Source: Propionibacteriaceae bacterium (GTDB lineage Bacteria > Actinomycetota > Actinomycetes > Propionibacteriales > Propionibacteriaceae). From it: a stretch of DNA of 42,123 nucleotides. Shown here in pieces: positions 5,535 through 42,026 of this stretch. The notes beneath the pieces were generated by a model. It saw nothing but the letters and a program-made list of their open reading frames with translations, had not been told where the DNA came from and did no database searches. The position numbers and the translations under genes are program-made. Numbering within the stretch: the stretch's first letter is position 1; each line of letters opens with the position of its first letter. The stretch spans positions 1-42,123 of the forward strand of contig JAUNKV010000021.1 of assembly GCA_030532575.1 (NCBI GenBank), read 5' to 3'.

Positions 5535-7436
5535 ATGGTTGATCTGCTTGCCCGTCCGTCATCGACGCCGTCGTACTCCCGATGGGTCGCCAAGTTCGTG
5601 GCGGTGCAGCAGCGCCTCGAGAAGAGCGGGGTCTATCCGCCCGGGGCCAGGCCACGTGAGGTGGACTGGCGGCTCAAGGAGGCTGCGGGCAGCTGGGCGG
5701 CAGCGATGTTCTGCCTCCTTGCCTGGCATGGTGACGAGGTGCTGGCCGACATCGAGCGGGCGTTGGGGGACCGCGCCAGCAACGAGGATGCGACGAGGCT
5801 GTTGGCCGGGATCGGCACTCGGGCCAGCCAAGATGTACTGCTGCGGAACCTCGATCACTTCCGGGTGCGGGATGCGGTGATCGCCAATGCCAGGCGCTGG
5901 CCCGTCGACACCCTGGAGTCGCTGCTGGCGGTCGGGTCCCGGCGGGGGCAGCGCACCGCCGACCTGTTCCAGCTGCTCGCGTGGCGGCACCCCGAGTGGG
6001 TGGAGGCCCTGCGCGCCGTGGGCGACGACCCAGCCGTCGAGCGGCTGCTGACCCCGGAGCCCGGCCAGGATGCCGAGCCGGGCGAGTGGGAGTCGCTGCC
6101 GAATCCGCCGGAGGGGACGACGGCGCCCGCGTGGCTGAACCCGTACCGTCTGCCGCGGCTGGTGCTGCCCTCAGGGAGGGTGCTGCCGATGGTGGAGGTG
6201 CAGCGCGTGGTGCGTTGCCTCATCTCCGGGGAGACCGTTGCACTGTTCACCGCGGAGAGCTGGGCGGCCTTCCTCGCCGACCTGCTGGAGCAGTGGCTGG
6301 CCCAGGGCGGCCGGGGTGACGGCTGGGTGGTCACGGCTCAGGCGGCGGGTGCGGATGTGAACGCCCGGGTGCTGATGAAGGCGATCCGGTGGTTTCGGGG
6401 GAGGCTGCACCGCGTCGCTGCCTACGAGGCGATGGCGTGCCTGGTGCAGCTCGGCACGCAGGGGGCGCTCATGGGGTTGGGGGAGCTGGCCCAGCAGGAG
6501 CGTTGGAATGACCTCAAGGAGCGGGCCGAGGTCGCGCTGGAGGGGATCGCGGCTGAGCGGGACATCAGCGTGGCGGAGCTGGAGGATGTCTCGGTGCCGG
6601 ACCTCGGACTCGGTGCAGATGGGCGGATGGCACTGGATTTCGGGCCGCGAAGCTTCCAGGTGCGGGTCGGTCACGATCTGACGGCCCGGGTCAGTGATGC
6701 CTCGGGGAGGACGTTGCGTTCGCTGCCCCGGGTCGGGGCCAAGGACGATCCCGCCAAGGCCCTGGTAGCCACGGCGGAGTTCCGGGAGCTGAAGAAGCAG
6801 CTCACCGCGGTGCTGCGCATCCAGGGCGCTCGGATGGAGGCCGCGATGAGCAGCCGACGTTCCTGGTCGGGGGAGCAGTTCCGGCAGGTGTTCCTCGCCC
6901 ATCCAGTGATGCGTTGCGTGGCGCACCGGCTGCTCTGGTCCATCGACGCAGTACACACCTTCCGCGTCGATGAGGACTTCCAGCCGGTGGACCGGGCCGA
7001 GAACCCGGTCCAGCTGCCAGCAGGGCCGTGCATCCAGCTGGCCCATCCGATGGAGGTGGAGCTGGATCAGTGGGCTCCGGTACTGGCCGACCATGAGATC
7101 ATCACCCTCGTCGAGCAGGTCGGACGCGGGGTGTACCGGGAGTTGCCGGACTGGTCGGGGGAGTGGGTCTCGGTGGGTGCGCTGCAGGGTCTGGTGGCGC
7201 ACGGCTGGCAGCGGCAGATCGACGGCGGGCTGGTCGTCGGGCTGAGCCGCAAAGTGGGAACTGGTCATGTGAGGCTGGGGTTCGAGTGCGACGACTGGTA
7301 CATCGCGGCCCCGCCGCCGAAGGAACCGGCCTGCCGAACCGAGGCCGTCATCGAGGGCGACCGGGCCACGATGGACCCGCTCACCTTGAGCGAGGCCTTG
7401 AGAGACTTGGCAAGGCTGCCCTGGCGGGACCGCTGA
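5535..7436 (+). CDS. DUF4132 domain-containing protein
   Basis: This encodes 633 residues without a signal peptide or membrane segments, so it is probably cytoplasmic. The N-terminal 330 or so residues are helical and repeat-like (ARRWPVDTLESLLAVG, CLVQLGTQGALMGLGELAQ), resembling HEAT-like scaffolds. The C-terminal 300 residues carry what I recognise as a DUF4132 domain: FRELKKQLTAVLRIQGARMEAAM, RSWSGEQFRQVFLAHPVMR, HRLLWS, and an ending with HPMEVELDQWAPVLADHEII. Proteins with this domain often occur with WGR-type or MolR-like proteins; no biochemical function is established. Here it stands alone between purL and a toxin-antitoxin pair, with its own probable leaderless promoter. The domain call is from motif memory and not from a search. 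Confidence 0.8.
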   Translation: MVDLLARPSSTPSYSRWVAKFVAVQQRLEKSGVYPPGARPREVDWRLKEAAGSWAAAMFCLLAWHGDEVLADIERALGDRASNEDATRLLAGIGTRASQDVLLRNLDHFRVRDAVIANARRWPVDTLESLLAVGSRRGQRTADLFQLLAWRHPEWVEALRAVGDDPAVERLLTPEPGQDAEPGEWESLPNPPEGTTAPAWLNPYRLPRLVLPSGRVLPMVEVQRVVRCLISGETVALFTAESWAAFLADLLEQWLAQGGRGDGWVVTAQAAGADVNARVLMKAIRWFRGRLHRVAAYEAMACLVQLGTQGALMGLGELAQQERWNDLKERAEVALEGIAAERDISVAELEDVSVPDLGLGADGRMALDFGPRSFQVRVGHDLTARVSDASGRTLRSLPRVGAKDDPAKALVATAEFRELKKQLTAVLRIQGARMEAAMSSRRSWSGEQFRQVFLAHPVMRCVAHRLLWSIDAVHTFRVDEDFQPVDRAENPVQLPAGPCIQLAHPMEVELDQWAPVLADHEIITLVEQVGRGVYRELPDWSGEWVSVGALQGLVAHGWQRQIDGGLVVGLSRKVGTGHVRLGFECDDWYIAAPPPKEPACRTEAVIEGDRATMDPLTLSEALRDLARLPWRDR

Positions 7437-7568: not shown

Positions 7569-7733
7569 TAAGAGGGTGCGCGGATAGGAGGGGTCGTCGC
7601 GAGGATCGTCATGGTGGGTTCCTGGCAAGGCGGACGACGAAGATCGCACTGGGGGTGCGTTCGAGGAGTTCAACGCAGCCAGGGGGTCACCAGGGCGACC
7701 GCAGTAGATTCCGCCTATTCGCGCACCCTCTAA
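7569..7733. mobile_element. MITE-like element with terminal inverted repeats and TAA duplication
   Basis: The left end GAGGGTGCGCGGATAGG (7572-7588) and the right end CCTATTCGCGCACCCTC (7714-7730) are inverted repeats matching at 16 of 17 positions. Each is flanked by TAA (7569-7571 and 7731-7733), which looks like a 3-bp target duplication. The 159-bp interior has no transposase gene, so this would be a nonautonomous element or deletion remnant. Termini of this look with TNA-type duplications occur in part of the IS5/ISL2 group, but I cannot assign the family. The right end supplies part of the stop codon of the neighbouring vapC gene. Confidence 0.6.
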
Positions 7734-8122
7734 ATCACTTCAACCTCCGAGATCGTGCGAGGGAAGTCCTTCATGTTGTTGGTGAGGAATGCGTCGGCTC
7801 CGGCCTCGACGGCGGTGGCCAAGTGGACAGAGTCGGCTGCCCGAAGTCCGTATTTCACCCCGAGAACCAAGGCCAGATTTGCCGTTGGCTCAGTGCAGGG
7901 CAGAAGGGCAAGGCGGCTCAGCAAACCTGCCAGGACATCAAGCTCTTCGGTTGAGCCCTGGCGCATGGGTTTGGTCAGTATTTCGGGCAGGAGCAGCACG
8001 GAGCCAACTCCGGCCTGGCCAGTTGGAGATGCGAAGAGCTTGGCGACGAGCTCGCCCAGATGATGCTCTGGCGAGGCAGCGTAGATCAAGACGTCCGAGT
8101 CGAACGCGATGAGTGGGGTCAC
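7730..8122 (-). CDS. vapC: PIN-domain ribonuclease toxin (VapC family)
   Basis: VapC toxins are Mg-dependent ribonucleases that block translation until neutralised by the antitoxin. The 130-residue product has the PIN pattern: AFDSDVLIY at the N-terminus (D8, D10), E47 in LLPEILTKP, and D97 in LRAADSVHLATAVE. The last motif is FLTNNMKDF, where the usual fourth acidic residue (TND) is Asn116. D110 or D119 might substitute, or activity may be reduced. The gene follows the antitoxin with a 4-bp overlap (8119-8122). Its TAG stop straddles the end of the MITE-like element: the final G (minus strand) belongs to the element. The reading frame may therefore have been shortened by the insertion, although 130 residues is a normal VapC length. 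Confidence 0.85.
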   Translation of the reverse strand: MTPLIAFDSDVLIYAASPEHHLGELVAKLFASPTGQAGVGSVLLLPEILTKPMRQGSTEELDVLAGLLSRLALLPCTEPTANLALVLGVKYGLRAADSVHLATAVEAGADAFLTNNMKDFPRTISEVEVI

Positions 8123-8403
8123 CGGGCTGAACGCTCCGCCCGTATCTCGGCGACGAGTTCGTCAGCACGCTCGGGGGAGAGCCCCTGAGCTGGGATGGGT
8201 TTGGTGCGTGCCTGGTTGAGCAGCGAGGCAATCTGGTCGGTCGACCACGCAGATGCGGCGCGGCGCGCGCTGAGGGCGCTCGGATGCACCAACACGGCTG
8301 CCACCTTGCCGTGCTTGGTGATCTCAACCTGCTCGCCCGCTTCGACCCGAGCCAGTTGCTCGGCGAAAGTCTGACGGGCGATTTCCATCGGAACCGTGGG
8401 CAT
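8119..8403 (-). CDS. Phd/YefM-family antitoxin
   Basis: This encodes 94 residues. The N-terminus MPTVPMEIARQTFAEQLARVEAGEQVEITKHGKVAAVLV (quoted in parts: ARQTFAEQLARVEAGE, then ITKHGKVAAVLVHPS) is the classic Phd/YefM DNA-binding fold. In it two beta strands and a helix make a dimer that binds the operon operator. The variable C-terminal half (from about 55 onward) should wrap the toxin. The gene lies first in a two-gene operon with vapC, with overlapping stop and start. Autorepression is expected for the family. A TAGACT box six bases before ATG 8403 suggests a leaderless transcript. Confidence 0.87.
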   Translation of the reverse strand: MPTVPMEIARQTFAEQLARVEAGEQVEITKHGKVAAVLVHPSALSARRAASAWSTDQIASLLNQARTKPIPAQGLSPERADELVAEIRAERSAR

Positions 8404-25861: not shown

Positions 25862-25911
25862 GTCGCAGTCCTGCGACGAATCGACCCTCCGCCGGTGAGA
25901 ACCGGCACTGT
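25862..25911 (+). promoter_or_regulatory. Palindromic operator-promoter unit 1 (lipoprotein 1)
   Basis: The palindrome GTCGCAGTCCTGCGAC (25862-25877, 7-bp arms) is followed after exactly 28 bases by CACTGT (25906-25911), within the shared block CGGCA-N-T-N-TGGTG. The same spacing is found in units 2 and 3. If CANNNT is the -10 box, the palindrome lies just upstream of the -35 region, a typical activator position. The leader to ATG 25943 is about 25 nt with GAAAGGAAG. Confidence 0.6.
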
Positions 25912-25942
25912 GGTGTCACAACCGAAACGAAAGGAAGCCACC

Positions 25943-26632
25943 ATGAGGACCCTCACCCTGCGCACCGGACTTGCTGCCGCCACCGCCGCCGTGCTGCTGT
26001 TCACCGGCTGCTCCGCCACCGTGGATGCCAAGCCCGCCGACGCCCCCGCGCCGGAGGAGCTGAACAGCCAGGCCCCGGGCATCGAGAGCCCCGCTCCGAC
26101 GGAGCAGCCGAGCCAGGGCACCACCGTCAAGGTGCCGGGGGTGGAGATCGATGTCGACAACGGCAAGGTTTCCGCGCCAGGGGTCGAGATCGACGCGAAG
26201 AACGGCAAGGTCACGGCCCCGGGTGTGGAGATCGATGCGGGTGAGGGGAAGATCAGCGCCGGTGCCCCGGCCGGGGACCAGACCGAGGCCAACGGGGGCG
26301 GCGGCTCCACCGTCGGCGACACCTGCACCGAGCCGGTGGTGATCTCCGAGGACGAGGCCTTCATCAGGATCAGCGGCGACTGCCCCTCCATCACGGTGAG
26401 CGGCAACAACGTCAACCTGGGCTTCGAGAAGGCCGGGACGCTGATCATCACCGGTAAGGAGGGCTTCATCCGGGGTGAGCAGGCGGGCACCGTCACCATC
26501 GAGACCGATCACAACAACGTCGGCATCGGCCAGATGGGCGACCTCCAGGTCTCCGGCAGCGACAACTTCATCCGCTCCGATGCCAGGACCGGTGCGCTGA
26601 AGAACACCGGCAAGGGCAACAACATCGGCTGA
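25943..26632 (+). CDS. DUF3060-type lipoprotein 1, with PGVEID repeats
   Basis: This encodes 229 residues with a lipoprotein signal peptide ending LLFTGC (Cys23). Residues 63-106 hold three tandem 14-residue units of the form PGVEIDxxNGKVxA. The C-terminal DUF3060-like domain (about 125-229) has spaced Asn motifs such as GNNVNLGFEKAG, HNNVGIGQMG and SDNFIRSDARTG, consistent with a beta-solenoid. It shares its signal peptide and the following AKPADAPAP segment with lipoproteins 2 and 3. The start at 25943 is set by AAAGGAAG. The function is unknown; a surface-anchored structural or binding role is my inference. A possible terminator follows. Confidence 0.82.
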   Translation: MRTLTLRTGLAAATAAVLLFTGCSATVDAKPADAPAPEELNSQAPGIESPAPTEQPSQGTTVKVPGVEIDVDNGKVSAPGVEIDAKNGKVTAPGVEIDAGEGKISAGAPAGDQTEANGGGGSTVGDTCTEPVVISEDEAFIRISGDCPSITVSGNNVNLGFEKAGTLIITGKEGFIRGEQAGTVTIETDHNNVGIGQMGDLQVSGSDNFIRSDARTGALKNTGKGNNIG

Positions 26633-26652
26633 CCCCTCCCCCAAGCGGGGTC
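26631..26652 (+). terminator. Weak hairpin at the end of lipoprotein 1
   Basis: GACCCC (26631-26636) and GGGGTC (26647-26652) form a 6-bp stem with a 10-base loop directly at the stop codon of the gene. Confidence 0.35.
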
Positions 26653-26720
26653 TGCCTCGTGGGTGTCGGCTCAGATGCCCCCTCACAGTGTGACCGATGT
26701 CCAGAACCGAGACAGGCCCG

Positions 26721-26754
26721 GACAGGCCGTCCCGCAGTCGCGGGGCGGCCTGTC
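26721..26754. terminator. Terminator hairpin between lipoproteins 1 and 2
   Basis: GACAGGCCGTCCCGC (26721-26735) pairs with GCGGGGCGGCCTGTC (26740-26754), a 15-bp stem with one G-U pair and a 4-base loop. It separates the transcription units and supports an independent promoter for lipoprotein 2. Confidence 0.75.
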
Positions 26755-26774
26755 GTCATGTGAGGCAGAGGGTT

Positions 26775-26824
26775 GTCGCAGTCCTGCGACGATTCGGCCT
26801 GCTGAGAAGGGAATGCGGCAGTGT
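26775..26824 (+). promoter_or_regulatory. Palindromic operator-promoter unit 2 (lipoprotein 2)
   Basis: GTCGCAGTCCTGCGAC (26775-26790) is identical to unit 1. After 28 bases comes CAGTGT (26819-26824) in the block CGGCAGTGTGGTGCCA. The palindrome ends 65 bases before ATG 26856, the same as in unit 1. Confidence 0.6.
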
Positions 26825-26855
26825 GGTGCCATCGAAACGACGAAAGGAAGACATC

Positions 26856-27575
26856 ATGAGGACCTTTACCCTGCGTGCTGGGATCGCCACGGCTGCCGTG
26901 GCGGCGTTGCTGTTCACGGGTTGCTCTGCGGCGGTGGATGCCAAGCCCGCTGATGCTCCGGCTCCGGATGACCTGCAGAGTCAGATGCCCAATGTTCCGG
27001 TGAAGACCATCGAGGGTGATGTCAACGTCGAGGCCAACGCCTCCAACGGTGCGACGGTGGACGCCAGTGCCGAGGGCACCGAGACGACCAGGGCGAGTGA
27101 TGAAGCCAGCGACGAGGAGACCGAGGAGGGCGGCGAGAAGTCGGGCAACACCATGACCATCACCTGCGACGCCCCCTATGTGGTATCCACCGATTCGTCC
27201 TACCTCAAGATCGGGGGTGACTGCCCGTCGATCACGGTGAAGGCGAACAAGTCGAACATTCAGTTCGAGGGGGCGGGTGAACTGATCATCATGGGCGAGG
27301 GCAACTACGTCAACGGCCAGAAGGCGGACAAGGTGAGCATCAGCGGAGGGAAGAACAACCTCCAGCTCACCACGAGTGGTGACCTCACCGTCGCAGGCCC
27401 CGGCAACTACGTCCACGCTGACAAGGCGGGTGACATCACCGTCGAGTCCGACACGAACAACATCCAGGTCACCGAGGCCACTGATCTGCTCGTCTCCGGC
27501 AATGGCAACGTCATCGCTGTCACGACCAAGAACGGCACCGTGAAGAACAGCGGCTCCAACAACAACATCTCCTGA
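26856..27575 (+). CDS. DUF3060-type lipoprotein 2
   Basis: This encodes 239 residues from ATG 26856, preceded by GAAAGGAAG. The signal peptide ends LLFTGC (Cys23). An N-terminal tether includes AKPADAPAPDDLQSQMPNVP and an acidic Ser/Glu-rich run (about 75-105). The C-terminal domain carries regular motifs: KSNIQFEGAGELIIM, KNNLQLTTSGDLTVA, TNNIQVTEATDLLVS, GTVKNSGSNNNIS. This is a ladder of roughly 20-residue rungs. The segment 26912-27085 is almost identical in DNA to lipoprotein 3. It is cell-surface anchored; the function is unknown. It is flanked by terminators and so is likely monocistronic. Confidence 0.83.
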   Translation: MRTFTLRAGIATAAVAALLFTGCSAAVDAKPADAPAPDDLQSQMPNVPVKTIEGDVNVEANASNGATVDASAEGTETTRASDEASDEETEEGGEKSGNTMTITCDAPYVVSTDSSYLKIGGDCPSITVKANKSNIQFEGAGELIIMGEGNYVNGQKADKVSISGGKNNLQLTTSGDLTVAGPGNYVHADKAGDITVESDTNNIQVTEATDLLVSGNGNVIAVTTKNGTVKNSGSNNNIS

Positions 27576-27586
27576 CCTTCCTCTTC

Positions 27587-27616
27587 GGCAGGCCGTCCCA
27601 CGTGGGACGGCCTGCC
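27587..27616. terminator. Terminator hairpin between lipoproteins 2 and 3
   Basis: GGCAGGCCGTCCCAC (27587-27601) and GTGGGACGGCCTGCC (27602-27616) are perfect 15-base inverted repeats with no spacer; a few central bases would open to form the loop. Confidence 0.8.
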
Positions 27617-27622
27617 CTCCAT

Positions 27623-27672
27623 GTCGTAGTCCTGCGACAACTCGGCCTGCTGTCAGAATGTGACGGCATTCT
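27623..27672 (+). promoter_or_regulatory. Palindromic operator-promoter unit 3 (lipoprotein 3)
   Basis: GTCGTAGTCCTGCGAC (27623-27638) differs from units 1 and 2 by one base in the left arm. The following CATTCT (27667-27672) again lies exactly 28 bases downstream, within CGGCATTCTGGTGTCA. The distance from palindrome to ATG is 59 bases, because six bases are missing in the leader. Confidence 0.58.
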
Positions 27673-27697
27673 GGTGTCACCGACGAAAGGAAACATC

Positions 27698-28399
27698 ATG
27701 AGGACCCTCTCCCTGCGTACCGGGCTCGCTGCCGCTGCTGTGCTGCTGTTCACGGGTTGCTCGGCGGCGGTGGATGCCAAGCCCGCTGATGCTCCGGCTC
27801 CGGATGACCTGCAGAGTCAGATGCCCAATGTTCCGGTGAAGACCATCGAGGGTGATGTCAACGTCGAGGCCAACGCCTCCAACGGTGAGACGGTGGGCGC
27901 CAGTGCCGAGGGCACCGAGACGATCAAGGCCCCTGAGACCCCGATGCCGGGTGAGGGGAGGACGGGCAGCGCGGAGGCCGTCGCCTGTGAAGGGGCCCAG
28001 GTGGTGAGCGCCGACAACTCGTTCGTCCAGATCGCAGGCGACTGCCCGTCGATCACCATCAGCGCGAACAACGCGGACGTGTACTTCGATGGCGCGGGCG
28101 AGCTGACCATCACCGGCAAGGACAACCACGTCCAGGGCAAGAAGGCGGGGGCGGTCACCGTCAGCGAGGCCGACAACGACATCTACCTGGAAACCAGCGG
28201 CGACCTGAAGATCACGGCGGGCAAGGACAACTTCTTCCAGGCCACAGAAACCGGCAACATCACCGTCGAGTCCGATGACAACGACGTCTACGTGGGCACC
28301 GGTGGTGACCTGAAGGTCTCGGGCAACGAGAACTTCATCAAGGTCTCCACCAAGAAGGGTGCGGTGGACAACAGCGGCAGCAGCAACACGATCCTGTAG
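27698..28399 (+). CDS. DUF3060-type lipoprotein 3
   Basis: This encodes 233 residues from ATG 27698 (GAAAGGAAA upstream), with lipobox LLFTGC (Cys21 in this slightly shorter signal peptide). The N-terminal tether is nearly identical to that of lipoprotein 2 up to about residue 75, then diverges (KAPETPMPGEGRTG). The C-terminal domain has the same rung pattern: NADVYFDGAGELTIT, DNDIYLETSGDLKIT, DNDVYVGTGGDLKVS, GAVDNSGSSNTIL. It should be lipid-anchored on the cell surface. It is the last of three paralogues and precedes a two-component system gene pair with its own -10 box. Confidence 0.83.
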   Translation: MRTLSLRTGLAAAAVLLFTGCSAAVDAKPADAPAPDDLQSQMPNVPVKTIEGDVNVEANASNGETVGASAEGTETIKAPETPMPGEGRTGSAEAVACEGAQVVSADNSFVQIAGDCPSITISANNADVYFDGAGELTITGKDNHVQGKKAGAVTVSEADNDIYLETSGDLKITAGKDNFFQATETGNITVESDDNDVYVGTGGDLKVSGNENFIKVSTKKGAVDNSGSSNTIL

Positions 28400-28472: not shown

Positions 28473-29168
28473 ATGAGTCGGATCCTCATCGCCGACGACG
28501 ACCCCATGATCCGCGACCATCTGGCGCGCATCCTGACCCGGCATGACTTCACCGCGCTCACCGCCGCCGACGGCATTGAGGCCTTGGAGGTGGCGGAACG
28601 CTCCAGGCCCGATCTGATCGTCCTGGATGTGATGATGCCCCGGGCTGATGGGCGGGAGGTGCTGGCCCGGCTGCGGCGCCGGGGCGACTGGACGCCGGTG
28701 ATCCTGCTGACCGGGGTGGGGCAGTCCGGAACCCGCGCTGATGCCTTGGACAAGGGGGCTGACGACTACCTCAACAAGCCCTTCGACCCGGCGGAGTTGG
28801 TGGCCAGGATTCGCGCGGTGCTGCGTCGCGGTCAGCTGGGTCAGACCCTGGCCCACGCCTCCCGGATCAAGGGCGGCGGCCTGGAGCTGGATCGGTTGGG
28901 CAAGACGGTGGTGGCGAAGGGGAAGCCGGTGCAGCTCACCCCGAAGGCGTTGGCGCTGCTGGAGTACCTGATGATCCACCACGGCGAGACCTTCAGCCGC
29001 GATCACCTGCTGCAGCAGGTGTGGGGGGTGGAGTTCGCCATCACGACGCGCGCCGTCGATCATCGGGTGGCTGAGGTGCGCAAGGTGCTGGGGGTCCACG
29101 GGCTGGAGGTCATCGACACGGTGCAAGGGGTGGGCTATCGCTTCCACCCGGAGGTGAAGGCGGTGTGA
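28473..29168 (+). CDS. OmpR-family response regulator
   Basis: This encodes 231 residues. The receiver domain has the acidic pocket ADDDPM (D8-D10), phosphoacceptor D52 in LIVLDVMMP, T80 in LLTG and K102 in LNKPFD, all conserved. The C-terminal winged helix (about 135-228) is of OmpR type: VQLTPKALALLEYLMIHHGE, FSRDHLLQQVWG, TRAVDHRVAEVRKVL, IDTVQGVGYRF. It is paired with the sensor kinase encoded next, with stop and start overlapping (GTGA, 29165-29168). It lies directly downstream of the three lipoprotein genes, and control of them is a reasonable but untested inference. Confidence 0.95.
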   Translation: MSRILIADDDPMIRDHLARILTRHDFTALTAADGIEALEVAERSRPDLIVLDVMMPRADGREVLARLRRRGDWTPVILLTGVGQSGTRADALDKGADDYLNKPFDPAELVARIRAVLRRGQLGQTLAHASRIKGGGLELDRLGKTVVAKGKPVQLTPKALALLEYLMIHHGETFSRDHLLQQVWGVEFAITTRAVDHRVAEVRKVLGVHGLEVIDTVQGVGYRFHPEVKAV

Positions 29169-32020: not shown

Positions 32021-32070
32021 TTGACCTTCCGGTCCTGCGTGGTATCGTAGGAGAAACGAAAGTGTTTCGT
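32021..32070 (+). promoter_or_regulatory. Promoter and CGAAA/TTTCG operator of the DeoR operon
   Basis: TTGACC (32021-32026) and TATCGT (32043-32048) are 16 bp apart. Just downstream lies the inverted repeat ACGAAA-GTG-TTTCGT (32056-32070), around the expected transcript start. Further TTTCG copies occur at 31994-31998 and 32007-32011. TTTCG-type repeats are typical DeoR-family operators, so autoregulation is likely. The rest of 31842-32088 shows nothing else. Confidence 0.7.
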
Positions 32071-32088
32071 AAGTAAGGGAAAGCCACG

Positions 32089-32841
32089 ATGACTGTGGAG
32101 CGCACAGATCGCGAGAACGCGATCCTCGCGAAGCTGGCCGACGACGGGTCGCTCAGCGTCGCTGCGCTGGCCACCGACTTCGGGGTCTCCGAGGTGACCA
32201 TCCGCGGCGACCTGCGCTCGCTGGAGCAGCAGGGCATGTTGGTCCGCACCCGGGGCGGGGCCCGCCCCATCAGCTGGCAGGGCATCCTGCAGCGCCAGAA
32301 GATCAACGTCGAGGCCAAGGAGCGCATCGCCCAGGCGGCCGCCGCGATGATCGGCAACGACGACACCGTCATGATCGAGGCCGGCACCACCGCCGCGCTC
32401 ATCGCGCGACACCTCACCAACCGGCGCGGCGTCCAGGTGGTCACCAACTCCACCCTCGTGTTCGCCAACGCCCGCCAGAACCCGGCCCTCAACATCATCC
32501 TCACCGGCGGGGTCCACCGGCCCGAGTCCGAATCCCTCGTCGGCCCCCTGGCCGAACGCGCCATCGCGGACTTCAACACCCGCATCGCCTTCCTCGGCAC
32601 CGACGGATTCTCCCCGGAACGAGGCCTGACCACGCGCTTCGTCGAGGGCGCGAAGGTCTCCACCCTGATGCGGGAGCGTGCCGAGGAGACCTGGCTGGTG
32701 GCGGACTCCTCCAAGTTCGGGCAGGCCGGATTCGTCTCCTTCCTGTCCCTGGCCGACATCACCGGCATCATCACCGACTCCGGTCTCGCGGACGACGCCG
32801 CTGAGGCCCTGACCGAACACACCCAGCTGAGAATCGTCTAG
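32089..32841 (+). CDS. DeoR-family transcriptional regulator
   Basis: This encodes 250 residues. The N-terminal winged helix has the family pattern TDFGVSEVTIRGDLRSLEQQG and the wing LVRTRGGARP (the first quoted in part: GVSEVTIRGDLRSLEQQG). The DeoR sensor domain follows (about 75-235) with IEAGTTAALIARHL, VVTNSTLVFANA, LTGGVHRPESESLVGPLAE and FLGTDGFSPERGLTT. Such domains bind phosphorylated sugars or related metabolites, which lift repression. It is the first gene of a seven-gene operon, with 10 bp to the next gene, and has an operator of TTTCG type upstream. It implies a sugar- or polyol-derived inducer for the pathway. Confidence 0.94.
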   Translation: MTVERTDRENAILAKLADDGSLSVAALATDFGVSEVTIRGDLRSLEQQGMLVRTRGGARPISWQGILQRQKINVEAKERIAQAAAAMIGNDDTVMIEAGTTAALIARHLTNRRGVQVVTNSTLVFANARQNPALNIILTGGVHRPESESLVGPLAERAIADFNTRIAFLGTDGFSPERGLTTRFVEGAKVSTLMRERAEETWLVADSSKFGQAGFVSFLSLADITGIITDSGLADDAAEALTEHTQLRIV

Positions 32842-32851
32842 GAGAGATCAA

Positions 32852-34216
32852 ATGGCCACCGTCATCGTCATGCCAGCCCTCGGGAACAGCGTCGAGTCCT
32901 GCCTCATCGTGTCCTGGGCCGTGAAGGAGGGCGACACCATCGCGGAGAACAGCGTGCTGTGCGAGGTGGAGACCGACAAGGCCGCCATGGAGGTGCCCGC
33001 CACCGCCGCCGGAACCGTGCTGAAGCGGCTGTGGGAGGAGGGCGACGACGTCCCCGTCATGCAGCCCCTCCTGGTGGTCGGCGAACCCGGTGAGGACCCG
33101 GCCCCGGCGCTGGCCGAGGCAGGCTTCGGCGACGCTGCCGCCGCGCCCGCCCCCGTCGAGGAGGTGCCGGTCGAAGCCCCCTCCACTGCGGCCCCGACGG
33201 CGACCGCCCCCGCCCCGGCCAGCGCTGCCGACGCCCCCGGTGCCAGCCCCCGCGCCCGTAACCTCGCAGCCGCCGAGGGCATCGACCTCGCCTCGGTGCC
33301 TGCGGGAACCGGACCCGAGGGGCGCATCATCGCCCGCGACGTCGCCGCCGTCGCCGACGGCACCACCAAGGCTGCCGCCCGCGCCGGGGCCACCGCCGGT
33401 GAGGGCACAGGGCTGGGCGGCCGTGTCTCCCAGGCCGACCTGACCACCCCGGCCGCCCCCACCGAACCCAAGGTCCAGGCCGCTGCTCCCGCCGTCGTCA
33501 CGGAACCCGACTTCCCCGGCCCCAGCACCCAGACCCCGCTCAAGGGCATCCGCAAGGTCATCTCCGAGCGGATGATGCACTCCCTGGCCAGCTCCGCGCA
33601 GCTCACCTACACCGCCACCGCCAAGGCCCAGGGCCTGCTCGACCTGCGGAAGAAGCTGAAGGCCTCCGACCCGGCGCTCGGGCTGACCAAGGTGACCATC
33701 GGCGACCTCGTCGGTTTCGCCGCCGTGCGTACCGCCGCCAAGCACCCCAACCACAACGCCCACCTTGAGGACGGGGTGCTCACCACCTTCGAGCGCGTCC
33801 ACATGGGCTTCGCCTGCGACACCCCACGCGGCCTGCTGGTCCCCACCGTGCGCAACGCCTCGCAGCTCAGCCTCGGCCAGTTCTCGGCCATCTCCAAGGA
33901 ACTCGCGGCCCAGGCCATCGAGGGCAACATCAACCCCGACCTGCTGAGTGGCGCCACCTTCACCGTCTCCAACCTCGGTGGCTTCGGCATCGAGTCCTTC
34001 ACCCCGCTGCTCAACGTGCCGCAGACCGCCATCCTCGGGGTTGACGCCATCTTCCCGCGCGCCTACGTCAACGCCAAGGGCAAGACCAAGGTCGAGCAGC
34101 GCATCGGGCTGTCCCTGACCGCTGACCACCGGGTCATCGACGGTGCGGACGCGGCCCGGTTCCTGGCAGACCTCGTGGCCTTCATCGAGAACATCGAATT
34201 CACCGTGATGCTGTGA
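32852..34216 (+). CDS. 2-oxoacid dehydrogenase complex E2 (dihydrolipoamide acyltransferase)
   Basis: This encodes 454 residues. Lipoyl domain (about 2-78) with lipoylation site K43 in EVETDKAAMEV; Ala/Pro-rich linker (80-130); E3-binding domain (about 131-165, SPRARNLAAAEGIDL and GTGPEGRIIARDV); second Ala-rich linker; catalytic domain (about 225-454). The active-site motif DHRVIDG has H426 and D430. It moves acyl groups from the E1 enzyme to CoA through its lipoyl arm. There is a single lipoyl domain, in contrast to the multi-lipoyl E2 of many actinobacterial housekeeping complexes, which suggests a specialised complex. E3 follows 11 bp later and E1 after that, so the whole complex is encoded here. 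The acyl group carried is unknown. Confidence 0.92.
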   Translation: MATVIVMPALGNSVESCLIVSWAVKEGDTIAENSVLCEVETDKAAMEVPATAAGTVLKRLWEEGDDVPVMQPLLVVGEPGEDPAPALAEAGFGDAAAAPAPVEEVPVEAPSTAAPTATAPAPASAADAPGASPRARNLAAAEGIDLASVPAGTGPEGRIIARDVAAVADGTTKAAARAGATAGEGTGLGGRVSQADLTTPAAPTEPKVQAAAPAVVTEPDFPGPSTQTPLKGIRKVISERMMHSLASSAQLTYTATAKAQGLLDLRKKLKASDPALGLTKVTIGDLVGFAAVRTAAKHPNHNAHLEDGVLTTFERVHMGFACDTPRGLLVPTVRNASQLSLGQFSAISKELAAQAIEGNINPDLLSGATFTVSNLGGFGIESFTPLLNVPQTAILGVDAIFPRAYVNAKGKTKVEQRIGLSLTADHRVIDGADAARFLADLVAFIENIEFTVML

Positions 34217-34227
34217 GAGGAACTGAC

Positions 34228-35595
34228 ATGACCAACTACGACGTCATCGTCCTGGGCGGCGGCCCCGGCGGCTACATCGCCGCTGAGCGGCTCGGCCACG
34301 CCGGGAAGAAGGTGCTCCTGGTCGAGGCCACCGCACTCGGTGGCACCTGCCTCAACGTCGGCTGCATCCCCACCAAGACCCTGCTGGGGGCCGCCAAGAC
34401 CTACGACCACGTCGTCCACGGTGCGCAGTTCGGCGTCCACGTCGAGGGAGCCCGCATCGACTGGCCCGCCCTCCAGAAGTGGAAGGACAAGGTGGTCTCC
34501 ACCCTCGTCGCAGGGGTCGGCGCCACCGAGAAGAAGGCCGGGGTCACAGTCATCCACGGCCACGGCCACTTCGACGGCCCGGGCAAGGTCACCGTCGACG
34601 GCACCACCCACACCGCCACCCACGTCATCCTCGCCACCGGATCAGTGCCCGTGATGCCCCCCATCCCGGGGGCCGTGGACAACCCGCAGGTCATCGACTC
34701 CACCGGTGCCCTGTCCCTGCCCGAGGTGCCGAAACGCCTGGCGATCATCGGCGGCGGCGTGATCGGTGTCGAATTCGCCTCCCTGTACTCGATGCTCGGG
34801 GCTGAGGTCACCGTCATCGAGATGCTGCCCGAGATCATCCCCTTCGCCGACGACGACGTGGCGGCCGAGCTCCGCAAGGCCCTGTCAGCGGTCACCTTCA
34901 AGCTCGGCTGCAAGGTCACCTCCCTCGACGGCGGCACCGTCCACTTCACCACCGCCGACGGTGCGGCGGAGTCCGTCACGGCCGACCACGTGCTCATGGC
35001 GGTGGGCCGCAAGCCCGCCGTCGAGGGCTGGGGAGCCGATACCTCCGGGCTCGAGTACTCCGGCCGTGGCGTCGTCGTCGATGACCGGATGCGCACCAAC
35101 CTGCCGGGCGTGTGGGCCATCGGCGACGTCACGGGCCGCAGTCTGCTGGCTCACGCCGCCTACCGGATGGGCGAGGTGGCCGCTGCCAACATCATCGATC
35201 CGGAGGCCCACCGACACGGCGAGGTGATGCGCTGGCACACCGTGCCGTGGGCCGTCTACACCGCACCCGAGTGCGCCGGGATCGGGCTCACCGAAGCCGC
35301 GGCGAAGAAGCAGGGCCGCAAGGTGATCACCACCAGCGTCCCCGGCTACATGTCCGGCCGCTTCGTCGCGGAGAACGGGCTGAAGGCCCCCGCCGTCGCG
35401 AAGCTCATCCTCGACGCCGAGACCCACCAGGTGCTGGGCATCCACGTCCTCGGCTCGTATGCCGCCGAGATGATCTGGGGTGCCTCGGCCGTGCTGGAGA
35501 CCGAGCTGAACCTCAACGACCTCCGTCAGCTGGTCTTCCCCCATCCCACCGTCAGCGAACTCATCCGAGAAGCCGCCTGGGCCGCGAAGGCCTGA
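34228..35595 (+). CDS. lpdA: Dihydrolipoamide dehydrogenase (E3)
   Basis: This encodes 455 residues from ATG 34228, preceded by GAGAGGAAC. The FAD-binding motif is [15 protein letters not shown] and the redox-active disulfide C41/C46 lies in [13 protein letters not shown]. The NAD-binding motif is [21 protein letters not shown], with [10 protein letters not shown] for the second FAD contact (quoted in parts: [11 protein letters not shown]). The C-terminal catalytic His-Glu pair lies in HPTVSEL. It reoxidises the dihydrolipoyl arm of E2 and passes electrons to NAD. A second, housekeeping E3 is expected elsewhere; the one here is dedicated by operon position. Confidence 0.95.
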
Positions 35596-35614
35596 GAACC
35601 GAGAGAAACGAACA

Positions 35615-38077
<2,463 letters not shown>

Positions 38078-38091
38078 CCCGGAGCACAGTC

Positions 38092-39381
38092 ATGCACGTC
38101 ATCAACGACCCTCAGCGTTCCCCGGCGCAACGCCTCGATGCACTCCGCGTCGCGGCCCGGGACGAGACCTTCCCCGACTGGGTGGTCGAGTCGAACAACC
38201 ACATCCACACCTGCTACTCGTTCAGCCCTTACACCCCGGCAGGTGCTGCTCTTGGCGCCCGCCGGGCCGGGCTGCGGGTGGTCGGCTCGGTGGATCACGA
38301 CTCGATTGCCGCTGCCGATGAGATGACCCGCGCCACCCGCATCCTGGGAATGGGCTCGGTGACCGGGTTCGAGTGCCGTGCCTTCTTCGGTGAGGGCTTC
38401 GAGGATCGCAAGCTCAACAACCCTGACTTCAAGGGCATCGCCTACATGACGGTGCAGGGTGTGCCCGCGCAGTCCAGACAGCAGGTCGAGCAGTGGCTGG
38501 CCCCCCGGCGGGCGGCCCGGCTGGAGCGGACCCTGGCGATGGCCAAGGCCGCCAACGACATCCTGGCCTCCCTGGGGCTCGCCCCCTTCGACGCCGAGGC
38601 CGACATGGTGGCCCGCAGCCAGTACCACGAGGGCGGTGGCATCACCGAGCGGCACCTGCTGGCGGCGATGGCCGATGCGTTGATCGCCGGGTTCGGGCGC
38701 GGTGAGGCCCTGCTGACTGGGCTGAAGGGCATGGGGATCACTGTGCCCGCCAAGCTCGCCGGCATCCTCGGCGACGTGGACAACCCGCACCTGACCTTCG
38801 ACCTGCTGGGGGTGCTGAAGGCCGAGTATCTGGACCGGATCTACATCCAGCCCACCACCGAGTGCCCGAGCGCCGTCGAGGTGGTGGAGCTGGCCGACTC
38901 CGTTGGTGCCATCGCCACCTACGCCTACCTGGGGGATGTGTCGGCCTCCCCGACCGGGGACAAGAAGGCCGAGAAGTTCGAGGACGAGTTCCTGGACGAG
39001 CTGTTCGCCGGCATGGTGGAGCGGGGGCTTCGGGCCGTGACCTACATGCCACCGCGCAACACCGCCGAACAGATCGAACGCATCCACCAGCTGTCCGTGC
39101 AGCACGGCATGTTGGAGATTTCCGGGGTGGACATCAACACCCCGCGCCAGGTGTTCACCTGCCCCGAGCTGCGCGACCCGAAGCTGGCCGAGCTCAACGA
39201 GGCCACCTGGGCGCTCGTCGCCCATGAGGCGTTGGCCAGCGTCGACCCGTCGGTGCACCTGCTCGGTGAGGGCCGCCTCAGCCCGGAGCAGCTGGCTGAA
39301 CGCATCAAGGTCTTCGCCCCGCTCGGTCGCGAGTACGCCGACGGTGCCGAGGCCTGCGACCTGCTGTCCCGCATCAACTGA
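38092..39381 (+). CDS. PHP-domain protein of the catabolic operon
   Basis: The product is 429 residues from ATG 38092. The N-terminal PHP metal motifs are visible: NNHIHTCYS (H37, H39), GSVDHDSIA (D68, H69, D70) and GFECRAFF (E94). Later PHP motifs look altered: the usual His after a strand appears as IATYAYLGDVSAS, and the final D-x-H appears as GVDINTPRQ. A normal three-metal site is therefore not certain. PHP proteins are phosphoesterases or hydrolases (histidinol phosphatase, polymerase exonuclease); this one is far from both. In an operon of dehydrogenases it could be a sugar-phosphate phosphatase or a lactone- or ring-opening hydrolase, as a guess. It lies 14 bp after E1 and 11 bp before the SDR gene. 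Confidence 0.8.
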   Translation: MHVINDPQRSPAQRLDALRVAARDETFPDWVVESNNHIHTCYSFSPYTPAGAALGARRAGLRVVGSVDHDSIAAADEMTRATRILGMGSVTGFECRAFFGEGFEDRKLNNPDFKGIAYMTVQGVPAQSRQQVEQWLAPRRAARLERTLAMAKAANDILASLGLAPFDAEADMVARSQYHEGGGITERHLLAAMADALIAGFGRGEALLTGLKGMGITVPAKLAGILGDVDNPHLTFDLLGVLKAEYLDRIYIQPTTECPSAVEVVELADSVGAIATYAYLGDVSASPTGDKKAEKFEDEFLDELFAGMVERGLRAVTYMPPRNTAEQIERIHQLSVQHGMLEISGVDINTPRQVFTCPELRDPKLAELNEATWALVAHEALASVDPSVHLLGEGRLSPEQLAERIKVFAPLGREYADGAEACDLLSRIN

Positions 39382-39392
39382 AAGGAGCTGCG

Positions 39393-40400
39393 ATGAGCAA
39401 CACCGCACGCATCCGGGGAGCCTTCCTCAACGCCCTGGGCCGCCCGGTCCTGGTCCGGGCAACTCAGGCCGAACCGACCCTGGAGCTGGGCGACGACCTC
39501 GCCGTTCCCGCCGACCTGGCCCTCCCCGCCGTCGTGAGGGTGGGGGAGCAGGCCTTCGAGGTGACCGCCCCCCGCCGGGGTGAGCGGGAGATCAGCGGCC
39601 GTGTCGCCCTGGTCACCGGCGGCGCGCAGGGCTTCGGCGCGGAGATCGCGAAGGGGCTGGTCGATCAGGGCTGCTTCGTCTTCATCGCTGATCTCAACGG
39701 CGACGGCGCGGCCGCGAAGTGCGCGGAGCTGGGCGCGGAGGTCACCCACCCGATCACCGTCGATGTCTCCAACGAGGAGTCGGTGGCAGCGATGGCGGCG
39801 GAGGTGGAACAGGTCACCGGTGGGCTCGACCTGGTGATCTCCAACGCGGGGATCGTCCGGGCCGGGTCGGTGCTGGAGCAGGACGTTGCCAGCTTCAAGC
39901 TCTCCACCGACATCAACTACGTGGCCTTCTTCCTGGTCACCAAGCACCTGGGGGCGCTGCTCGCCCGGCAACACGAGACGGCACCTGGATGGCTGACCGA
40001 CATCATCCAGATCAACTCGAAGTCCGGACTGGTCGGCTCCAACAAGAACGGGGCTTACGCGGGCTCGAAGTTCGGTGGGATCGGGCTGGTGCAGTCCTTC
40101 GCGCTGGAGCTGGTGGAGCACGGCATCAAGGTCAACGCCATCTGCCCCGGCAACTTCTACGACGGCCCGCTGTGGTCCGACCCGGATCGGGGGCTGTTCG
40201 TGCAGTACCTCAACTCCGGCAAGGTGCCGGGTGCGAAAACCGTCGCGGATGTCAAGGCCTTCTACGAGGCGAAGGTCCCGATGCGGCGCGGTGCCACCGG
40301 CATCGATGTGCTGCGTGCCATCCACTACATCGTCGAGCAGGCCTACGAGACCGGCCAGGCCGTGCCGGTCACCGGCGGCCAGGTGATGCTCAGTTCCTAG
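39393..40400 (+). CDS. SDR oxidoreductase, sorbitol-6-phosphate-dehydrogenase-like
   Basis: The product is 335 residues from ATG 39393, preceded by AAAGGAG. A Rossmann motif VTGGAQGFGAEIAKGL (TGxxxGxG, near 73-80) and the SDR catalytic set follow: SNAGIVRAG, INSKSGLVGS with the Ser, and AYAGSKFGG with YxxxK. The first 65 or so residues form an extension before the Rossmann fold, unusual for classical SDRs of about 250 residues. The tail MRRGATGIDVLRAIHYIVEQ recalls sorbitol-6-phosphate 2-dehydrogenases. It should oxidise or reduce a hydroxyl of a sugar, polyol or their phosphates with NAD(P). Its operon links it to the downstream zinc-type dehydrogenase. Confidence 0.88.
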   Translation: MSNTARIRGAFLNALGRPVLVRATQAEPTLELGDDLAVPADLALPAVVRVGEQAFEVTAPRRGEREISGRVALVTGGAQGFGAEIAKGLVDQGCFVFIADLNGDGAAAKCAELGAEVTHPITVDVSNEESVAAMAAEVEQVTGGLDLVISNAGIVRAGSVLEQDVASFKLSTDINYVAFFLVTKHLGALLARQHETAPGWLTDIIQINSKSGLVGSNKNGAYAGSKFGGIGLVQSFALELVEHGIKVNAICPGNFYDGPLWSDPDRGLFVQYLNSGKVPGAKTVADVKAFYEAKVPMRRGATGIDVLRAIHYIVEQAYETGQAVPVTGGQVMLSS

Positions 40401-40424
40401 CCAGAGTCCCTCAAGGAGAGAACC

Positions 40425-42026
40425 ATGAGTGAGCTTCCCGCCACCCAGTACGCCATCCAGATCGTCGGCAGGGATGAGTTCGTCCTCAACCCGGCCAAGG
40501 AGATCGATCCTGTTGGCCCGCACCAGATGATGCTCCAGGTGGAGGCCTGTGGCATCTGCTTCAGCGACACGAAGCTGCTGCACGCCTTCGACTCGCATCC
40601 GCGCAAGGCGGAGGTGGTCTCCGGGATCACCCCGGAGGCGTTGGCCGAGATCCCCAACTACCGACCCGGCACCCAGCCGACGGTTCCCGGCCATGAGCCG
40701 GTGTGCCGGGTGATCCAGGTGGGTGACGAGGTGACCCACTTCAAGGTCGGTGACCGGGTGCTGGTGCAGGCCGACTGGAAGCACCTGCGCACCCCGGCCT
40801 CGAACGGAGCCTTCGGGTACAACTTCGACGGTGCGCTGCAGGAGTACGTCGTGGTCGACGAGCGCTGCGTGGTGGCGCCGAACGGCGAGGAGTTCCTGAT
40901 CCATGTCAGCGACGGTCCGTCCGCGGCCGCCGTGGGGTTGATCGAGCCATGGGCCACCGTCGAGGGCTCCTACGCCTGGGCCGAGCGCAACCACGTCGCC
41001 GATGGTGGGCGGCTGCTGGTGGTCGGCGAGGGCGATCTGGGATCGCTGCTGGAGACCTGCACCCCGGCCGAGGTGGTGAGGGTCGCCGTCGATGGGCTGG
41101 ATGAACTGGCCGGGCAGGCCTTCGACGACATCGTCTTCTTCGGATCGGATGCCGATGCGGTGGAGAAGGCGGCGAAGCTGCTGGGGATGCGGGGCATCTT
41201 CTGCCTGGTGCTTGCCGGGGAGACGTTGGAACGGAAGGTGTCGCTGGACATCGGGCGGGTCCACTACGACTTCATCCGGTTCTGCGGGACCACTGGCACG
41301 GACCCCGTTGAGGGCTACGCCTGGATTCCGGCCACGGGGGAGCTGCGCGAGGGGGACAAGGTGGCCATCATCGGGGCGGCCGGTCCGATGGGGCAGATGC
41401 ACACGATGCGGGCGGTGACCTCCGGGGTGCCCGGCATCACCGTCGACGGTACTGATCTCAGCGACGAACGGCTGGCGGGGCTGGCAGCCGTGGTGGGTCC
41501 GGTGGCGGAGCAGAAGGGGGTGCCGCTGCACATCATCAACACCGGATCGACCCCGCTGCGTCCGGGCTACACGCACATTTCGTGCATGGTCCCGGTTCCG
41601 GCGCTGGTGGCGCAGGCGGTGGACCTGGCGGCGGAGGGGGCCATCCTCAACGCTTTCGCGGGCATCCCGGCCGGAACCTACGGCGAGTTCGACCTGCAGG
41701 GGATCGTGGAGCGTCGCATCTTCATGCTCGGCACCTCCGGCTCGGATGTCTCGGACATGCGCACGGTGCTGCGGAAGATCGAGGAAGGGATCATCGACAC
41801 CACGATCTCCCTCGACGCGGTGACGGGGATGGCGGGCTTCGCCGATGCCATCGGCTCGGTCATCAACCGCACCTCGGGGGGCAAGATCATGGTCTTCCCG
41901 ATGCTTCACGACCTGGAGCTGACGCGCCTTGTCGACATGGAGACCAAGCTCCCGCACGTCGCGGCGAAGCTGAAGGATGGCCGCTGGACCAAGGAGGCGG
42001 AGGAGGCCCTGCTGGCAGGCGAGTGA
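40425..42026 (+). CDS. Large zinc-type (MDR) dehydrogenase with inserted nucleotide-binding-like domain
   Basis: The product is 533 residues, against 340-420 for typical members. The N-terminal catalytic part has the zinc ligand region ACGICFSDTK (C45), PGHEP (H90, E91) and LIEPWATVE (E174). The Cys-rich structural zinc loop is not seen. A first Rossmann-like segment starts LLVVGEGDLGS (198-207) and runs to about 290. A second starts VAIIGAAGPMGQMH (313-326) and looks like the true coenzyme site. The GAAGPMG form recalls L-sorbose-1-phosphate reductases (SorE/YggP type). It would interconvert a ketose or polyol intermediate. It is the last gene of the operon in this window; downstream a weak hairpin is present at 42032-42051. 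Confidence 0.87.
   Translation: MSELPATQYAIQIVGRDEFVLNPAKEIDPVGPHQMMLQVEACGICFSDTKLLHAFDSHPRKAEVVSGITPEALAEIPNYRPGTQPTVPGHEPVCRVIQVGDEVTHFKVGDRVLVQADWKHLRTPASNGAFGYNFDGALQEYVVVDERCVVAPNGEEFLIHVSDGPSAAAVGLIEPWATVEGSYAWAERNHVADGGRLLVVGEGDLGSLLETCTPAEVVRVAVDGLDELAGQAFDDIVFFGSDADAVEKAAKLLGMRGIFCLVLAGETLERKVSLDIGRVHYDFIRFCGTTGTDPVEGYAWIPATGELREGDKVAIIGAAGPMGQMHTMRAVTSGVPGITVDGTDLSDERLAGLAAVVGPVAEQKGVPLHIINTGSTPLRPGYTHISCMVPVPALVAQAVDLAAEGAILNAFAGIPAGTYGEFDLQGIVERRIFMLGTSGSDVSDMRTVLRKIEEGIIDTTISLDAVTGMAGFADAIGSVINRTSGGKIMVFPMLHDLELTRLVDMETKLPHVAAKLKDGRWTKEAEEALLAGE

Follow-up and report, generated by a model that had tools for sequence, protein, structure and literature searches.

The window analysed here, a stretch of 42,123 nucleotides on contig C42 of the 3.19-Mb genome of an Arachnia-like Propionibacteriaceae bacterium (G000), contains a seven-gene operon that encodes a DeoR-type regulator, the E1, E2 and E3 proteins of a 2-oxoacid-dehydrogenase-type complex, a PHP-like protein, a short-chain dehydrogenase/reductase (SDR) and a medium-chain dehydrogenase/reductase (MDR). 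From the observed gene content, synteny, co-occurrence and homology we propose, with slightly better than even confidence, that the operon forms the lower half of an aldolase-independent 6-deoxyhexose (L-fucose) route in which acetyl-CoA is released by the complex. An original prediction, made from the letters alone, had not recognised the gene set as a described pathway, and we likewise found none in the open-access literature: among the papers listed from open-access PMC text, none connected a 2-oxoacid-dehydrogenase-type complex with L-fucose or L-rhamnose catabolism in its title or abstract. The features of the operon are as follows.

32021..32048, plus strand: sigma-70-type promoter-like site TTGACC-16-TATCGT (consensus scan, 9 of 12 positions match)
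32057..32069: palindromic operator CGAAAGTGTTTCG (CGAAA-GTG-TTTCG), presumed DeoR site
32089..32841, plus strand: DeoR/GlpR-family regulator, 250 aa (Pfam: DeoRC 170.6 bits, HTH_DeoR 54.5 bits)
32852..34216, plus strand: E2 dihydrolipoamide acyltransferase, 454 aa, with lipoyl, E3-binding and catalytic domains (Pfam)
34228..35595, plus strand: E3 dihydrolipoyl dehydrogenase, 455 aa (TIGR01350, 469.3 bits; cut-off 408.8)
35615..38077, plus strand: E1, thiamine-diphosphate alpha and beta parts fused in one 820-aa chain (Pfam)
38092..39381, plus strand: PHP-superfamily-like protein, 429 aa (63-residue match to 3e0f, E 1.2e-7)
39393..40400, plus strand: SDR, 335 aa, sorbitol-6-phosphate-dehydrogenase-like, with ~65 extra N-terminal residues
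40425..42026, plus strand: MDR dehydrogenase, 533 aa, distantly related to the L-sorbose-1-phosphate reductase SorE and bearing an insert

The seven genes, all on the plus strand, span 32089-42026, and the intergenic gaps from deoR to the MDR gene are 10, 11, 19, 14, 11 and 24 bp. Our gene calls agree with the seven co-directional genes and 10-24 bp gaps of the original prediction, and gene order, gaps and the promoter-like site are in line with its single operon behind one promoter with a CGAAA/TTTCG palindrome, both of which could be located (32021-32048 and 32057-32069).

The operon encodes E1, a lipoyl-E2 and E3 side by side, each with the domains and motifs of a complex of the 2-oxoacid dehydrogenase type, and Pfam and NCBIfam bear out the earlier claim that the three proteins are complete. 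In the E2 translation we spotted ETDKA (lipoyl) and DHRVIDG, which we take to be motifs of such proteins. Pfam places E1_dh at residues 167-407 of E1, Transket_pyr at 472-644 and Transketolase_C at 668-784, and the beta half aligns with E1-beta of pyruvate dehydrogenase (PDH) and branched-chain ketoacid dehydrogenase (BCKDH), PISE and HSQ segments included. Both E1 and E2 stayed below every NCBIfam cut-off listed, including the PDH equivalogs, and are not classed as pyruvate or acetoin dehydrogenase. The possibility that the complex is the only pyruvate dehydrogenase of the organism was ruled out by an AceE-type E1 at G000:C18; a second E1-like pair lies on C50, and the original claim of a dedicated complex is supported. 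The fused E1 is conserved, with a mean column identity of 69% across 44 sequences from many phyla.

A search of the genome for L-fucose isomerase gave one FucI, on a contig other than that of the operon (G000:C70; TIGR01089, 929 bits against a cut-off of 850). This fuc locus encodes RbsA, RbsC, a binding protein, FucI, an FGGY kinase, a LacI-type regulator and an RbsD/FucU-family protein, of which the kinase, rhamnulokinase-like, and the RbsD/FucU-family protein score below the NCBIfam cut-offs; it holds no PF00596 aldolase. The operon itself has no transporter, isomerase or kinase gene. Among 23 genus genomes (G000-G022), PHP, MDR and FucI were all present in the same 17 and all missing from 5, and G013 (60% complete) had FucI alone without PHP and MDR (Fisher p 1.8e-4, kinship ignored). 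All 17 operon-bearing genomes of this set therefore have the L-fucose isomerase, which comes together with a FucU-family protein and a rhamnulokinase-like kinase in those genus genomes that were examined. The PHP search, the only one made in 13 further genus genomes (G023-G035), gave 12 strong matches and 1 weak one, and FucI and MDR were found in none of the 14 same-order genomes searched.

The two loci are also physically close in some genomes. In Tessaracoccus antarcticus (L039) FucI lies ~4 kb past the MDR gene, and in G003 and G009 the fuc locus and the operon are at most ~20 kb apart; in 10 of the 17 operon-bearing genus genomes the MDR gene is remote from the operon or sits on a different contig. 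Because a locus of FucI, kinase and transporter genes co-occurs with the operon, we assign the pathway to 6-deoxyhexoses, here L-fucose, and consider this assignment well supported. L-rhamnose was rejected as a substrate in the organism itself, as G000 has no RhaA, although a kinase-aldolase fusion exists there. A class II fructose-bisphosphate aldolase gene adjoins the fuc transporter genes in L112, L113 and L116, three of the loci opened, by functional linkage or by chance.

The two dehydrogenases suggest what happens to the sugar phosphate. The nearest solved chain to the SDR is 5o3z, sorbitol-6-phosphate dehydrogenase (E 1e-43); its best NCBIfam match, NF009050, reaches 208.7 bits against a cut-off of 307, which leaves it outside SrlD/SorD. 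For the MDR, Pfam recognises the ADH_N part alone, and the protein shares motifs and 23-27% identity with SorE and SorE-type proteins (Klebsiella SorE, blastp E 2.5e-8). The MDR of a spirochaetal operon of the same type (L062) is 50-53% identical to at least three sorE-annotated proteins among the matches listed, one of which sits in a Klebsiella sorbose operon with phosphotransferase system (PTS) genes and an SDR. In all, 144 E1 relatives were confirmed in genome contigs and 80 were kept, to which the locus counts refer; SDR counts near E1 were made by tblastn. With Klebsiella SorE as query, relatives at 45-53% identity were found in 15 of these loci, none of them Propionibacteriaceae, and L079 has one at 26%. 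Each of the 15 also has a second dehydrogenase, an SDR in 11 or an MtlD-like protein in 4 (L064, L066, L068 and L071; the L068 member was scanned against families and the others were assigned by clustering), and never both. MtlD and SrlD each oxidise a hexitol phosphate to fructose-6-phosphate, so the exchange of SDR and MtlD-like protein beside SorE relatives points to one shared reaction. This swap for an unrelated hexitol-phosphate-oxidising enzyme, a hint drawn from genomes, is the strongest clue to the reaction, and a carbonyl shift of the SorE/SrlD type in the pathway is probable. That the two dehydrogenases create a carbonyl compound for the complex, as had been suggested, is plausible from these relations.

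The reactions that we propose, and their order, are read from the genomes. The upper half, encoded on the other contig, would consist of ATP-binding-cassette (ABC) uptake, the FucU-family protein and FucI, which makes L-fuculose from L-fucose, and the FGGY kinase would yield L-fuculose-1-phosphate. The SorE-like MDR would then reduce C2 to give a 6-deoxyhexitol-1-phosphate (L-fucitol-1-phosphate), and the sorbitol-6-phosphate-dehydrogenase-like SDR would oxidise C5, adjacent to the methyl group, to give a 1-deoxyketose-6-phosphate, namely 1-deoxy-D-tagatose-6-phosphate if SorE stereochemistry is kept. This order of MDR and SDR is modelled on the sorbose pathway, in which the SorE/SrlD pair moves the ketone in like manner on L-sorbose-1-phosphate. 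On the fused, acetoin-dehydrogenase-like E1, thiamine diphosphate would add to the methyl ketone, the adjoining C-C bond would break and tetrose-4-phosphate would leave; the two-carbon unit would pass through lipoyl-E2 to acetyl-CoA, and E3 would make NADH.

One step is common to acetoin dehydrogenase and transketolase: attack of thiamine diphosphate on a ketone, with cleavage of the neighbouring C-C bond. For such chemistry to yield acetyl-CoA from a 6-deoxyketose-1-phosphate, the ketone must shift from C2 to C5, beside the methyl group. The only difference between L-rhamnulose-1-phosphate and L-fuculose-1-phosphate lies at C4, the carbon that would end up as the aldehyde of the tetrose, so that both would give the same products and one complex could serve both sugars. 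That the complex cleaves a 1-deoxyketose phosphate is in our view the best, if unproved, reading, its probability a little above one half; the acetoin or 2-oxoacid substrate suggested earlier is refined to such a sugar phosphate by inference. A chemical precedent comes from one study, in which 1-deoxyxylulose is reported to be formed by purified PDH, and 1-deoxyxylulose 5-phosphate (DXP) by aceE mutants in vivo (PMC3424233).

Several known systems resemble parts of this route. The L-sorbose pathway (SorE with SorD/SrlD) has the same pairing of an MDR ketose-1-phosphate reductase with an SDR hexitol-phosphate dehydrogenase, whereas the operon is tied to a thiamine/lipoyl complex and, genome-wide, to FucI, has no PTS gene, and encodes an MDR that carries an insert and is just 23-27% identical to SorE. 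The acetoin dehydrogenase complex (AcoABCL) would share the chemistry, turning an alpha-hydroxy methyl ketone into acetyl-CoA and an aldehyde, but the operon E1 is fused (820 aa), its proposed substrate is a sugar phosphate, and its E2 partner has a classical 2-oxoacid_dh catalytic domain (Pfam), whereas AcoC is of the alpha/beta-hydrolase type. With the classical FucI-FucK-FucA-FucO route and its RhaEW variant, the proposed pathway has in common the isomerase, the kinase and a ketose-1-phosphate intermediate, and the SDR is related to RhaW; in contrast to them, no FucA-, RhaD- or RhaE-type aldolase goes with the operon pathway. E1-alpha and E1-beta of PDH are homologous to the operon E1 and have cofactor motifs in common with it, but the operon E1 would run the carboligation that forms 1-deoxyxylulose in reverse, on a 1-deoxyketose phosphate.

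The E1-E2-E3 core is widespread. In most stretches of sufficient length, E2 and E3 are neighbours of E1, which rules out that the neighbourhood is not conserved; of the gene-neighbourhood check proposed with the original prediction, the core held across phyla and the full seven-gene set proved less conserved, the MDR gene lying elsewhere in 10 of 17 genomes. The gene caller often merged or missed genes in high-GC loci, so absence from its gene map is weak evidence, and for most clusters of neighbouring genes one member was scanned against families and the rest were assigned by clustering. The closest named E1 is that of Arachnia propionica OH887_COT-365 (98%). In a midpoint-rooted tree of the operon E1 and 43 of the 80 relatives, the operon E1 falls among Propionibacteriaceae, nearest to L046 (unclassified) and then to spirochaetal E1s, apart from L087, the other actinomycete in the tree; Bacteroidota, Acidobacteriota and Lentisphaerota occupy the opposite half. 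Such grouping of Propionibacteriaceae with spirochaetes suggests horizontal transfer.

Sugar isomerases recur near these relatives. FucI lies inside the locus stretch of L039, L062, L069 and L094, and RhaA inside that of L054, L062, L073 and L078; L062 FucI and L073 RhaA score above their cut-offs. In L078, DeoR, SDR, SorE-like MDR, E2, E3, E1, RhaB-like kinase, RhaA and a RhaE-like gene form one run. Across the 48 E1-bearing genomes tallied, drawn from 50 of the 80 loci, FucI and RhaA were each above cut-off in 27, and one or both in 34; each was found in 3 of 14 control genomes. A transaldolase-type cluster (c10, one member scanned) is present in 7 of the 80 loci and lies immediately upstream of E2 in L076, L090 and L100, which fits release of a tetrose phosphate; an aldolase of the FSA type (one member scanned) occurs close to the operon or to the fuc locus in L115, L116, L117 and L119. 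Either enzyme could take the tetrose phosphate onward. A tandem-duplicated class II aldolase (c22, 430-434 aa) also lies near the Bacteroidota operon in L072, L073 and L085, and a shorter one in L048; the best NCBIfam match of the L073 member, below the cut-off, is 3-oxo-tetronate 4-phosphate decarboxylase, a four-carbon phosphate enzyme, and c22 might handle the tetrose phosphate.

E1 homologues on alphaproteobacterial plasmids, 52-54% identical among the matches listed, sit among sugar transporters and kinases, with a sugar-phosphate isomerase in 2 of the 4 records opened and genes annotated acoC/aceF beside the homologue in one. The plasmid records label them as generic alpha-ketoacid dehydrogenase or acoB. 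These sets possibly carry out the same chemistry on another 1-deoxysugar. On the plasmids L125, L126, L127 and L129, an E1 of ~53% identity adjoins a stand-alone lipoyl protein and an alpha/beta-hydrolase-type gene.

The operator was compared among relatives. The palindrome CGAAAGTGTTTCG occurred in none of 100 shuffles of the window, and its exact pattern has a single location across the 3.19-Mb genome; promoter-like sites of the TTGACC-16-TATCGT kind number 2 in the region against 0.6 expected. We examined 16 of the 22 available Propionibacteriaceae sequences, and in 14 of them a copy with 0-2 mismatches lies 17-29 bp upstream of deoR. L042 has an exact copy, but 70 bp ahead of deoR, and L044 has none before deoR and an exact copy at 6103-6115, ahead of E2. 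The regulator, which reached no NCBIfam equivalog cut-off, would probably repress the operon until a sugar phosphate, the putative inducer, is present. The fuc locus of G000 gave no operator match at up to 2 mismatches.

The PHP-like gene predicted earlier is present. Its protein has no match in Pfam, where it does not reach the PHP gathering score, or in NCBIfam, and its family link is supported by the 3e0f match and by a profile search (E 1.5e-8). Two homologues score 24.7 and 26.0 against the Pfam PHP cut-off of 26.4, and His/Asp/Glu positions are conserved in an alignment of 23 sequences. The protein, which the original prediction had hydrolysing or dephosphorylating an intermediate, would probably act on the tetrose phosphate or another intermediate.

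Three other explanations have to be weighed against cleavage of a 1-deoxyketose phosphate. In an aldolase and lactaldehyde branch, which we consider unlikely, L-fuculose-1-phosphate would be cut to dihydroxyacetone phosphate (DHAP) and L-lactaldehyde, the SDR would be RhaW-like, and the MDR and E1-E2-E3 would turn the three-carbon piece into acetyl-CoA via pyruvate, methylglyoxal or acetol. Several observations favour this branch and weigh against our proposal. The SDR resembles RhaW, the lactaldehyde-dehydrogenase half of RhaEW, and shows homology to the dehydrogenase part of proteins that combine aldolase and SDR (TIGR02632, 133 bits); as it is extended at the N-terminus by only ~65 residues and the operon encodes no aldolase, it is not itself a RhaEW. 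Among Bacteroidota, the SDR of L073 (scanned) and those of L085 and L101 (by eye) carry a fused RhaE-like aldolase domain that keeps the expected His pairs (by eye), those of L072 and L080 are without the fusion, and a RhaE-like gene occurs in L062 and L078; these fusions and genes, with the RhaW likeness, make an aldolase route possible in those relatives. RhaEW is reported to yield DHAP and L-lactate in vitro, the RhaW part oxidising lactaldehyde (PMC3870299). The genome also has 7 microcompartment shell-protein matches (G000:C51:270385-272869; C34:22217-28150; C1:10358 and 91769), none on the FucI or operon contig, and a Pdu cluster is reported for Propionibacterium propionicum F0230a (PMC6620236). 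Propanediol or lactaldehyde metabolism, including a propanediol branch from L-fucose, is thus conceivable; the shell matches and the Pdu cluster make our proposal, and the wider module described below, slightly weaker and the lactaldehyde branch slightly stronger.

Against the branch stands the distribution of PF00596, the family that we take to cover FucA, RhaD and AraD and that also matches a RhaE-like protein in this data set. Three genomes that have both the operon and FucI had no match to it, namely G002, G009 and G005, the last a single contig of 100% completeness; it is present in at least one copy in 18 of the 23 genus genomes, and its absence is therefore not general. The two hits in the organism's own genome, on C48 and C47, are not near FucI and belong to other gene sets. 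As judged from reading the sequences and not from a family scan, both were rejected as FucA, the C48 hit because it sits in an ascorbate-like gene set and the C47 hit because it is a kinase-aldolase fusion. An 841-aa frame at the latter site (G000:C47:20808-21365; locus L137:1314-3839) begins as a rhamnulokinase-like FGGY kinase and contains the class II aldolase match, an apparent fusion of the two; G018, G019, G020 and G022 have aldolase hits in long frames too, perhaps from the same fusion. The lactaldehyde branch also leaves the SorE-type MDR without a clear role.

The same complex could instead serve another sugar, such as D-arabinose entering through FucI, a pentitol phosphate or a free 1-deoxyketose, with glycolyl-CoA as a possible acyl product or another aldose phosphate as partner; this we find about as unlikely, if not slightly more so. 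FucI enzymes accept D-arabinose too, and XylB-like or other FGGY kinases (c15: L064, L068, L071, L072 and L085; L085 and L068 scanned) occur in L064, L068 and L071, three of the four loci with an MtlD-like protein, whose genomes lack FucI and RhaA. An isomerase-like protein of L068 had no match in a PDB search or in Pfam. More widely, 14 of the 48 E1-bearing genomes have neither isomerase, and FucI or RhaA was found in 14 of 16 with an SDR near E1 versus 20 of 32 without (Fisher p 0.10; many stretches short). These gaps also weaken the 6-deoxyhexose route. RhaA, mainly a 6-deoxyhexose enzyme, in the neighbourhood of four loci, and the FucU-family protein and rhamnulokinase-like kinase that go with FucI in the genus, argue for that route and against another sugar. 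XylB is reported to phosphorylate 1-deoxyxylulose (PMC3424233), a further point for another substrate. Finally, the homology of both E1 halves to PDH/BCKDH E1 would fit an ordinary second pyruvate (or branched-chain) dehydrogenase co-transcribed with two unrelated sugar dehydrogenases. We hold this to be quite improbable: AceE and another E1-like pair are already in the genome, E1 and E2 reach no PDH equivalog cut-off, and in several phyla E1 relatives repeatedly lie near genes for sugar isomerisation, phosphorylation and transport.

Other points weaken the proposed route. Identity of the MDR to SorE-type proteins reaches only 23-27%, and the PHP gene is left without an assigned step. In a matrix search the operator was upstream of none of the 10 MDR genes outside the operon, which gives no sign that they belong to the DeoR regulon. 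Among five fuc loci only L112, that of G000, exceeded the 99th background percentile of 10.1, with a weak, partial match scoring 14.5; L113, that of G005, was just below at 9.7, and the three others scored low. The background pieces include true sites.

More tentatively, at somewhat below even confidence, the relatives may represent an old module found in several phyla, in which a thiamine/lipoyl complex would cleave 1-deoxyketose phosphates from L-fucose or L-rhamnose to acetyl-CoA and a shorter aldose phosphate without lactaldehyde. Its feeders would be SorE/SrlD-type or SorE/MtlD-type pairs, and its hosts Actinomycetota, Spirochaetota, Bacteroidota, Calditrichota/Ignavibacteriota and others. 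Mucins and algal polysaccharides are rich in L-fucose, which bacteria, as is commonly taught, break down to lactaldehyde and 1,2-propanediol. If the proposed route is true, the predicted products of L-fucose change for oral, gut and environmental bacteria with the fused E1, this conserved protein gains a function, and nature offers an example of 1-deoxyketose phosphate cleavage by thiamine enzymes.

Elsewhere in the window, three tandem related lipoprotein-like open reading frames (ORFs) with similar signal peptides lie at 25895-28399 and adjoin a response-regulator-like gene at 28473, as judged by eye. At 7730-8403 on the minus strand, a pair of short ORFs resembles, also by eye, a Phd/YefM-type antitoxin followed by a PIN-domain toxin.

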